From the NCBI GenBank assembly GCA_000999025.1, contig LCFM01000011.1:44475-84233 (forward strand): a stretch of DNA of 39,759 nucleotides, read 5' to 3'. The translations under genes and the position numbers were made by a program. Position 1 is the stretch's first letter. Each line of letters begins with the position of its first letter. The DNA is from Parcubacteria group bacterium GW2011_GWA2_43_13. Lineage in GTDB: Bacteria; Patescibacteriota; Patescibacteriia; UBA9629; GWA2-43-13. A model generated the notes under the pieces. That model was not told the origin of the DNA. It saw only the letters and a program-made list of their open reading frames with translations, and did not search any database. This document shows, one piece after another, positions 9,827 through 19,002 of the stretch.

Positions 9827-11212
9827 TTATGCGACGTTTTTGCGTGAGATAACGACCCACGGAGTTTTGAGGATAATGCCGATATCAAATGTCAGTGACC
9901 AGTTTTCAATATAATACATATCCAGCCGAACTTCTTCTTCAAATGATAAACTTGAGCGACCTGAAATTTGAGCCATGCCTGTAATACCTGGTTTAATGGA
10001 ATGAACTCGTTTATGGTGGTGTTCGTAACGTTCAACCTCTTCTGGTTCATGGGGGCGTGGGCCCACAATACTCATATCGCCTTTTAACACATTATAAAAC
10101 TGGGGTAGTTCATCAATGCTGTATAGTCGAAGAAACGTGCCTATTCGCGTAATGCGCGGGTCATGTTTCATTTTAAATAACGGGCCTTCGCGCTCATTTT
10201 TTTCTATAAGATTTTTTTTCATTTCATGGGCATTGTTTACCATAGAACGAAATTTGTACAGCGAAAACGGTTTGCCATGCAGTCCGACTCGTTTGAGTTT
10301 CACGCATATCGGTCCTCTGGAATCGCACATAATCAACAGCGCCACGATGATACATAAAGGGACACACGCAATAAGCATGAAACCTGAAAAAATAATATCA
10401 AATACTCGTTTGCCGATCCTCCCCCATCCGTCAAGCGGTGTGTGTTTGATATGAATGAGTGGCGTTCCCATGATGGTGATAATATCAATATTTCGCAAAT
10501 GAGCATCAAACACATCTGCCACATAATAAAAATTTTTATGCGCGTCTTGCGCGGTAATCATGCATTGTTCCGTGATTTCACGAGGCGCGTGCGGATCCAT
10601 AAGTATCACGCTTGTAATAGAGGGATTGGCTAATTCTTTTGTAAGTTCTGGTACGATTTCCGGTGATAAAGGTAGAGTTTTATACGGCATAATGCCCCAT
10701 TGCTTGTTAGCGCGAAGTGAATTGAAAAATGTTTCAGTAAATCCATTACTGCCGATAAGAAGCGCTTGCTCAAGCCCGTATGAATGGCGATGGAACGACT
10801 GCCTAATGTTTCGAAGAATAAATCGTTCTAAAGCGATAAGGATAATGGCAAATCCCCATCCCATTAAGATGATAAATCGGGAATCAAACAGTTCTCGTTG
10901 GACAAACATCCAAACAGTGATGAATAAAAACCCGCCAGTTGATCCTAAAAATATTTTTGCGAGAATATCAATGAATCGTTTTGGCTCAGGAATCGTATAC
11001 AATCCAGCTATAGAAAATACGAGAATCCAGACACAGGCGATACCTAATACAGTGCTGAAATACACAGAGAAAGGTAAACTAAAAATCACCGGACGCAGTT
11101 CAGTGACGAAGGGATGCAAACGCGCTGAATAGGCAAGAAGTCCTGCCACAACAAGGGTGATATAATCAGCGATCAGTGCAAGTACGGAAAAAAGAATATC
11201 CGAACGACGCAT
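9827..11212 (-). CDS. Exopolysaccharide biosynthesis polyprenyl glycosylphosphotransferase (WbaP/WcaJ-like)
   Basis: N-terminal TM helices; C-terminal 'KRVFDIIFSGFMLI...YKFRSMVNNA...LRLYSIDELPQFYNVLKGDMSIVGPRPHEPEEV'. Confidence 0.93.
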   Translation of the reverse strand: MRRSDILFSVLALIADYITLVVAGLLAYSARLHPFVTELRPVIFSLPFSVYFSTVLGIACVWILVFSIAGLYTIPEPKRFIDILAKIFLGSTGGFLFITVWMFVQRELFDSRFIILMGWGFAIILIALERFILRNIRQSFHRHSYGLEQALLIGSNGFTETFFNSLRANKQWGIMPYKTLPLSPEIVPELTKELANPSITSVILMDPHAPREITEQCMITAQDAHKNFYYVADVFDAHLRNIDIITIMGTPLIHIKHTPLDGWGRIGKRVFDIIFSGFMLIACVPLCIIVALLIMCDSRGPICVKLKRVGLHGKPFSLYKFRSMVNNAHEMKKNLIEKNEREGPLFKMKHDPRITRIGTFLRLYSIDELPQFYNVLKGDMSIVGPRPHEPEEVERYEHHHKRVHSIKPGITGMAQISGRSSLSFEEEVRLDMYYIENWSLTFDIGIILKTPWVVISRKNVA

Positions 11213-11217
11213 ACAAA

Positions 11218-11253
11218 GTAGAATCTGAAGCACGAAGTACGAAATTCGAAACC
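11218..11253. repeat. CPR-type intergenic repeat (gaagcacgaagtacgaaattcgaa)
   Basis: Resembles 32190-32242 (ccgaaattcgaagcacgaaactcg...). Confidence 0.5.
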
Positions 11254-11459: not shown

Positions 11460-12120
11460 ATTCGGGAACCTATAAGCCGAGTTCTGTCCTCCTGCGTTGC
11501 CGGAACGCAGAATGGATGATTATCTATCTGGGACTCATATTGCTATGGGCCTCGAACGTCTTTTTGACTTTCACCAGGAAGGGTTTACCAACAATACTCT
11601 TGCATTGCAATAAGGTGGAATACCTTTCTGCCATGATAAAAGAGTCACCAATGTTACCATTGGGGTTGCCGTTAGCCGCCCTCACTCTGTGGGGTATTGC
11701 GACATCGCGACACTTTTCACCTTTGACCCGCACTAACTTTTGCCATGTTTGCGTACACACCATGAAAAGCGCAATCATGTACCCATACACACGCATTTTG
11801 GGGCAAAAGTTAGTGCGGGCTTGTATTGTCTCTGTGGCACTTTCCCTGGGCTTAGCATCTGCGCATGCCTGAACACACATTCACGCGCTTTGGTACACCC
11901 GGTGGCCGTTAGCCACTTCCGCGACCCCGCACCTATTATTGGGTATTTTACTCTGGCGAGTAAAATAAGGATTATGTATGTACATTTTTTGAAGCTATTT
12001 CAATAGTGTTCTGTTGAAAAGCGATAACTTTCCCAATAATAGATGCGGGGGGTGCTCGGACTTTCCTCCCCAAAGATAAGGTTTTACCCTTACTTTAGAG
12101 CAATCATCCAGTTCCCGAAT
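11460..12120 (-). ncRNA. rnpB: RNase P RNA with two long helical insertions
   Basis: On the minus strand: 'ggggaggaaagtccgagcacc' (CR-I/P4), 'gggaaagtgccacagaga', 'ggtaaaccc', 'aggacagaactcggcttatagg' (P4 3' strand); P1 attcgggaac/gttcccgaat and P2 tggatgatt/aatcatcca pair. Confidence 0.95.
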
Positions 12121-12152: not shown

Positions 12153-12575
12153 TCAATTATTCTTATGTTCTTGTTTTTCATGAATATCAAGCGCTTTATT
12201 TACCAGCGCATCTGCATGTTTATTGCGTTCGCGAGGAATTGCGGTAAATGTGATATGAGAAAATAAGTGGCATATATTCCATACTTTGATAAATAATTTC
12301 CCAAGCTCTGCATCTTTTACTTTGTATTCACGATTCAGTTGTTTGACCACAAGTTCGCTGTCGAGAAAGCAGTGTATGTGTTTGATTCCTTTTTTATGCG
12401 CGTATTCAAGGCCTGCCAGCAGAGCTTGATATTCGGCTTGATTATTTGTTGTTGTGCCGATGTATTTTTTTATTTCGTGCACAATATTATTTTTTTCATC
12501 ATACAATACAGCGCCGATTCCTGCATGACCAGGATTTCCACGCGCTCCTCCGTCTGTATAGAGTGTGTATATCAT
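12153..12575 (-). CDS. rnhA: Ribonuclease HI-family protein
   Basis: 'YTDGGARGNPGHAGIGAVLYDE', 'NNQAEYQALLAGLEYA', 'RERNKHADALVNKAL'. Confidence 0.92.
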   Translation of the reverse strand: MIYTLYTDGGARGNPGHAGIGAVLYDEKNNIVHEIKKYIGTTTNNQAEYQALLAGLEYAHKKGIKHIHCFLDSELVVKQLNREYKVKDAELGKLFIKVWNICHLFSHITFTAIPRERNKHADALVNKALDIHEKQEHKNN

Positions 12576-18831: not shown

Positions 18832-18880
18832 CTCGGGAGTAGGGATGTGAACCCCAATTACCAGGACTCCTGCGACAAAT
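18832..18880 (-). pseudogene. degenerate tRNA-like 3' half
   Basis: Minus strand 'GTCGCAGGAGTCCTGGTAATTGGGGTTCACATCCCTACTCCCGAG': variable loop, paired T-stem TGGGG/CCCTA and acceptor 3' strand, but truncated anticodon arm and non-consensus T-loop TTCACAT. Confidence 0.55.
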
Positions 18881-18951
18881 CTCGAGGACATGGATTCGAA
18901 CCATGATTACCAGGGCCAGAACCTGGCGTCCTACCATTAGACGATCCTCGA
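18881..18951 (-). tRNA. tRNA-Gln (anticodon CUG)
   Basis: Acceptor TCGAGGA/TCCTCGA, anticodon arm CCAGG-TTCTGGC-CCTGG, T-arm CATGG-TTCGAAT-CCATG; CCA not encoded. Confidence 0.93.
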
Positions 18952-19002
18952 ATTTTGCGCGGGACACATGAGAGGACACCCGAGAATTAAAGAAAAACAT
19001 TA

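Follow-up and report, generated by a model that had tools for sequence, protein, structure and literature searches.

The only RNase P RNA gene (rnpB) of Parcubacteria group bacterium GW2011_GWA2_43_13 contained a 126-nt insert at the junction of helices P5 and P7 (J5/7), and this insert was a dispersed palindromic repeat, a point that was missed in the initial annotation of the region. Judging from its sequence, it was very probably a non-autonomous, MITE-like palindromic transposable element that entered the sole rnpB at J5/7 and replaced the short hairpin typical of the class. The element occupied positions 11925-12050 on the minus strand of the window, which was the whole stretch of DNA that we analysed (39,759 nt), and was recognized by its fold (z -9.8) together with its copies elsewhere in the genome.

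The host gene extended from P1 to P1' over 661 nt (12120-11460, minus strand); its neighbours were an RNase H-like gene at 12153-12575 and, on the other side, a sugar transferase gene at 9827-11233. Its P1 arms (AUUCGGGAACU / AGGUUCCCGAAU, minus strand) and CR-I (minus strand; GAGGAAAGUCCG and ACAGAACUCGGCUUA were both present) could be read directly in the sequence, as could CR-V. The gene matched the bacterial RNase P RNA model RF00010 (E 4.5e-22, model positions 1-367) and had P4 and CR-I to CR-V intact. Thus, the covariance check that had been proposed for it recognized rnpB, but the score of 73 bits was below the gathering score of 100, and the 5' part of the alignment was not fitted across the insert. 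No second RNase P RNA was found in the assembly, which comprised 971 kb of a CPR (Patescibacteria) genome in 27 contigs. A metagenome-type assembly and an insert belonging to a repeat family could raise the suspicion of a chimera formed at the repeat. However, the copies differed by about 25%, too much for a collapse, rnpB was in the interior of a 90-kb contig, and the RNase P core continued in register on both flanks, which made such an artefact scarcely credible.

According to the sequence and the RF00010 alignment, P7 was followed by a P8 hairpin (11902-11916, minus strand, GTGGC-TAACG-GCCAC), and P15 was minimal (11558-11568, minus strand, GUC-AAAAA-GAC) with a 3-bp stem and AAAAA as L15. 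The same alignment had no P6 and placed 0 nt at P16/P17. The GGU motif was missing from P15; this fits the tRNA-Gln gene at 18880-18952 of the window, which had no encoded CCA. Loss of the GGU motif alongside absent CCA is a trend that Lui et al. (2021, PMC8172020) report for CPR. The insert was not the sole expansion of the gene, since P9 was likewise enlarged and P12 formed a 93-nt hairpin (11727-11819, minus strand) with perfect 18-bp arms (CCCGCACTAACTTTTGCC / GGCAAAAGTTAGTGCGGG). These arms began with CCCGCAC and resembled the ends of the 126-nt element. Nevertheless, P12 was rejected as a second dispersed copy because no copy of the 93-nt hairpin was found in the own genome, and the similar ends were suggestive at most. 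The initial annotation had attributed the length of about 661 nt to an insertion of about 124 nt; the total proved right, whereas the unit measured 126 nt and was accompanied by the enlarged P12 and P9.

The insert was located on the 5' side between P5 (GCACC/GGUG) and P7 (GGAAG/CUUCC), with CR-I and P5 (GAGCACC) directly before it, and the sequences flanking the site were GAGCACC and TCGCGGAAG. Its terminal inverted repeats, CCCCGCATCTATTATTGGG at the 5' end (12032-12050, minus strand) and CCCAATAATAGGTGCGGGG at the 3' end (11925-11943, minus strand), paired as 12050-12032 with 11943-11925 into a closing helix of 19 bp with one U.G, in agreement with the 18-19 bp and single wobble described previously. 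Both internal hairpins were present as described as well. The 3' one (11944-11967, minus strand, tattttactc-gcca-gagtaaaata) was common to the other full copies according to the alignment and pair counts, and the 5' one (11994-12022, minus strand, gcttttcaa...ttgaaatagc) was absent from them. The predicted folding energy was -52.0 kcal/mol, compared with -20.5 +/- 3.2 for shuffled sequences, none of which (0/200) was as low. The arm motif had two sites in the whole window, both inside the insert, where 0.02 were expected. The structured insertion at the P5/P7 junction was therefore real.

When the own genome was searched with the insert, five more copies emerged, three of full length (73-90% identity) and two partial. 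Together with the one in rnpB, the family consisted of four full copies of 126-135 nt and two partial copies. Namely, the full copies were at C1:86486-86608 (76% over 123 nt, E 2e-17), C12:14840-14967 (73% over 127 nt, E 3e-12) and C12:33614-33748 (90% over the 3' 40 nt plus a matching 5' arm), while contig C9 had a bare 42-nt palindrome and contig C2 a degenerate copy (covariance model E 1e-2). A covariance model built from the four full copies recovered the same six places. The arms and the 3' hairpin were retained across these four copies through five double changes, and only 4 of 500 shuffles were as good. The copies outside rnpB were situated between ORFs; the C12:14840 copy had an exact target duplication (TTAT at both sides), and one further full copy had a near-exact one. 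Among 300 random intergenic 125-mers from a 406-kb sample of the own genome, 19 (6%) had a dispersed match of at least 80 bits, and the case therefore does not stand on similarity alone. The weight for a repeat came from the full-length collinearity, the transposition signature and the coinciding edges: the homology ended where the insert ended (aligned query 6-132 of 141) and left the flanking rnpB sequence outside. In the same sample, about 20% of the 125-mers had a dispersed homologue of at least 40 bits, and intergenic repeats were abundant in this genome.

It might be argued that rnpB was the source of the repeat and that the dispersed copies were derived from it. The rnpB copy scored best against the covariance model, but the model had itself been built from four sequences that included this copy. 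Moreover, the own-genome copies stopped at the palindrome ends and none carried the RNase P core, one full copy had an exact target duplication and another a near-exact one, and the end motif occurred outside rnpB in many unrelated genomes of the class. Thus, an origin of the family in rnpB was highly improbable.

In the class as a whole, 28 of 381 genomes had the end motif CCCCGCACC...GGTGCGGGG at a spacing of 101-131 nt, with as many as 21 copies in a single genome, and the reversed control gave 0. The ends agreed across genomes and most interiors differed. Exact 4-bp direct repeats flanked 15 of 35 non-tRNA copies versus 7.4% of mismatched pairs, in which the left flank of one copy was combined with the right flank of another. 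The duplicated sequences were TTGA, TTTA, TCAA, TTAA and a few others, and none was longer than 4 bp; a 6-bp duplication (GTTATC, GTTTAC, GTTGAC) that had been considered was replaced by 4 bp after the flank pairs were compared. With its terminal inverted repeats, dispersed copies, lack of coding capacity and 4-bp target-site duplication in the family, the element resembled a MITE, except that the rnpB copy itself had no target duplication (left flank GCACC, right flank TCGCG). Going by the ends and the TTNA-type duplications, one may guess at a piggyBac/IS1380-like transposase. A DNA similarity search of 37 relatives revealed no copy of the element, and no exact element arms were found in viral contigs. 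Twenty-six viral matches to the short end motif were set aside as looking like chance in G+C-rich phages, since they had hardly any target duplications and their arms were mostly unextended.

The CCCCGCACC...GGTGCGGGG palindrome could also enclose a complete tRNA gene (L302, L295, L296, L297, L298, L299, L241, L249, L252, L300 and L301). One of these cases, L302:598-698, belonged to the genome analysed here (C11:43997-44097) and preceded the window start by about 380 bases. Several such units sat within a second, broken tRNA whose isotype seemed to match, in the anticodon loop or close to it: L295 (Thr-TGT), L298 (Ile-TAT), L302 and L252 (both Thr-CGT), and L241 (Gly-CCC). In L295 and L298, the flanks of the unit were called as a tRNA-like gene once they were joined.

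To place the insert among related rnpB genes, we measured the distance from CR-I to P8 in the 63 genes of the class in which an automatic finder could locate P8. The median was 32 nt, leaving room for a small hairpin, and the 126-nt insert was indeed far larger than usual, as initially noted. J5/7 reached at least 60 nt in 9 of the 63 genes (L023 among these was overestimated by the P8 finder) and at least 100 nt in five. The comparison with sister genomes that had been proposed thus revealed a normally short hairpin in the class, but the only same-family genome in the search set, G001 (Ca. Jacksonbacteria SI072_bin11, with a contig identical to JABIPD010000005.1 across rnpB), had a J5/7 insert of about 120 nt with unrelated sequence and different loops. 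The search set, which contained no genome of the same genus, yielded no relative with an empty site. The G001 insert was not accepted as a dispersed repeat, as it had only a 44-nt A+T-rich match, apparently in coding DNA.

Five long J5/7 inserts (G044, G036, G028, G011 and G056) were searched against their own genomes. Those of G044, G036 and G028 had matches with E values from 1e-6 to 5e-13 (G028 5e-13, G036 2e-7), although one G028 match (L186, at a contig start) may be in coding DNA. The G044 core TAGCCGCTAGGCGGCTTCGCCTT was present at about six other places in that genome, at least three of which were palindromes whose ends were of the CCCCGCCCC or CCCCGCTCC type. The match of G011 was weaker (E 1e-6, A+T-rich sequence). 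The G056 insert had no match in its whole own genome and matched another genome only; in the 70-97 kb sampled, neither G015 nor G056 had a dispersed match. In G022, P12 and P19 of rnpB contained two copies of one repeat that was also present elsewhere in the genome, and the arms shared by P12 and P19 of G026 had no dispersed copy in 400 kb. Thus, J5/7, P12 and P19 of rnpB genes in this class repeatedly held genomic repeats, and J5/7 was a recurrent acceptor site: at least three other genera likewise had an insert there with dispersed copies.

A second kind of repeat, a small GC hairpin (e.g., TGCTTCGCA) followed by GGAAACTCTAAATCC... and mirrored, appeared to occupy J5/7, P12 or P19 of rnpB in L036 (G022), L043 (G051), L032 (G001), L040 (G011) and L041 (G018), sometimes twice per gene. 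Near-identical palindromes with arms of approximately CCCAGCACCACTTTTG were also observed at two sites within one rnpB in L028 (G026) and L061 (G360), and these arms resembled the MITE ends CCCCGCACCACTTTTG of G378 and G138.

The position of the insert was where B-type RNAs carry P5.1, as the initial annotation had pointed out, and a home-grown P5.1-like domain could have been selected to replace a lost P6/P16/P17 contact, with the dispersed copies being secondary or coincidental. P6, P16 and P17 were indeed absent, nearly all class members retained some hairpin at J5/7, and all 19 closing pairs were intact in the rnpB copy while some were lost in the C1 and C12a copies. On the other hand, L15 (AAAAA) offered neither a P15.1 nor another loop partner, G001 conserved neither the sequence nor the loops of the insert, and the whole unit was common to three full-length copies elsewhere and belonged to a wider family with target duplications. 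The idea of a peripheral domain that substitutes for a missing contact was therefore not borne out, and a home-grown origin was distinctly improbable. Other candidates were rejected as well: a B-type P5.1 in the strict sense had the right position and no P15.1 (GUC-AAAAA-GAC in the P15 region), an A-type P6 pairing with L17 had no P16/P17 (0 nt in the RF00010 alignment), and a mobile group I or II intron had no Rfam intron match in the insert, which at 126 nt was too short.

According to the transposition model that we prefer, the element with CCCCGCACC...GGTGCGGGG ends and a 4-bp target duplication would have inserted into J5/7 of rnpB, probably taking the place of a former short hairpin. In the transcript, its self-complementary ends would pair into a stem-loop and the P5/P7 stack would re-form across the base of this stem, a bridging that would be structural and not chemical. 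The catalytic core (P1-P5, P7-P11, P15, CR-I to CR-V) would still be expected to fold. Since the rnpB copy had no duplication, we only infer its arrival by insertion; the duplication may be missing because it decayed, because the earlier hairpin was deleted or because of recombination. The insert was probably tolerated rather than selected.

The insert was likely to be retained as an extended peripheral arm of the mature RNA, a prediction that we prefer because nothing requires its removal, and no tertiary role could be argued for it from the sequence. As in an rRNA intervening sequence, RNase III might instead cut the stem and leave a mature RNA of two core-held fragments without the insert. 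The genome had an RNase III gene, and the 19-bp closing stem was lengthened by the stacked 10-bp hairpin to approximately the length needed by this enzyme. However, such a stem was about as short as RNase III can accept, and we know of no fragmented bacterial RNase P RNA, so excision was rather unlikely. In any case, this alternative concerned the fate of the insert and not its origin.

RNase P RNA is a textbook ribozyme with a fixed core and peripheral helices that come and go. New helices seldom reveal where they came from; the one in this CPR bacterium with a tiny genome leads back to a transposable palindrome that has sister copies and, across its family, a target duplication. This suggests that transposon-like hairpins can become parts of an essential catalytic RNA. 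An origin from dispersed repeats also helps to explain why many CPR rnpB genes are below annotation thresholds, and it predicts that enlarged variable helices in CPR genomes should match dispersed repeats. Tentatively, and with somewhat more doubt than confidence, transposition of self-complementary elements may be a general CPR route to peripheral helices of structural RNAs, catalytic ones included: one family would enlarge RNase P RNA (J5/7, perhaps P12) and also sit, with a complete tRNA, in broken genes for tRNAs of that isotype, making hairpin loops of RNA genes a preferred safe harbour.

Among known systems, rRNA intervening sequences are stem-loops of about 100 nt inserted in a structural RNA, and the present insertion was similar with RNase P RNA as the host. 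The MITEs and palindromic repeats of prokaryotes (REP, RPE, ERIC-type; reviewed in PMC10969869) were like our element in being short and non-coding, with terminal inverted repeats, dispersed intergenic copies, target-site duplication and a stable hairpin fold. Our element differed in having one copy within an essential gene, that for RNase P RNA, and that review had no mention of rnpB. The type B P5.1 is at the same P5-P7 junction in an RNA without P6/P16/P17 (PMC2858038) and kisses P15.1 (PMC11779636), whereas our insert had no P15.1 partner and its size and sequence were not conserved. STRR repeats are reported within rnpB of heterocyst-forming cyanobacteria (Vioque 1997, Nucleic Acids Res 25:3471), which is likewise genomic repetitive DNA in an RNase P RNA gene; STRRs are short tandem repeats, in contrast to a dispersed 126-nt palindrome at J5/7 from a family with 4-bp duplications. 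The diverged CPR RNase P RNAs of Lui et al. (2021, PMC8172020) likewise score under the Rfam threshold and have large helix extensions; P13/P14/P16/P17 are missing from many of them, and the UGG motif is often lacking. The accessible part of that paper noted extensions such as P15 and gave no origin and no J5/7 case, while here the extension was traced to a dispersed repeat. In the literature covered, which included few subscription papers, we found no MITE-type palindrome serving as a J5/7 arm with sister copies and target duplications. Repeats in rnpB and large extensions of CPR RNase P RNAs were already known.
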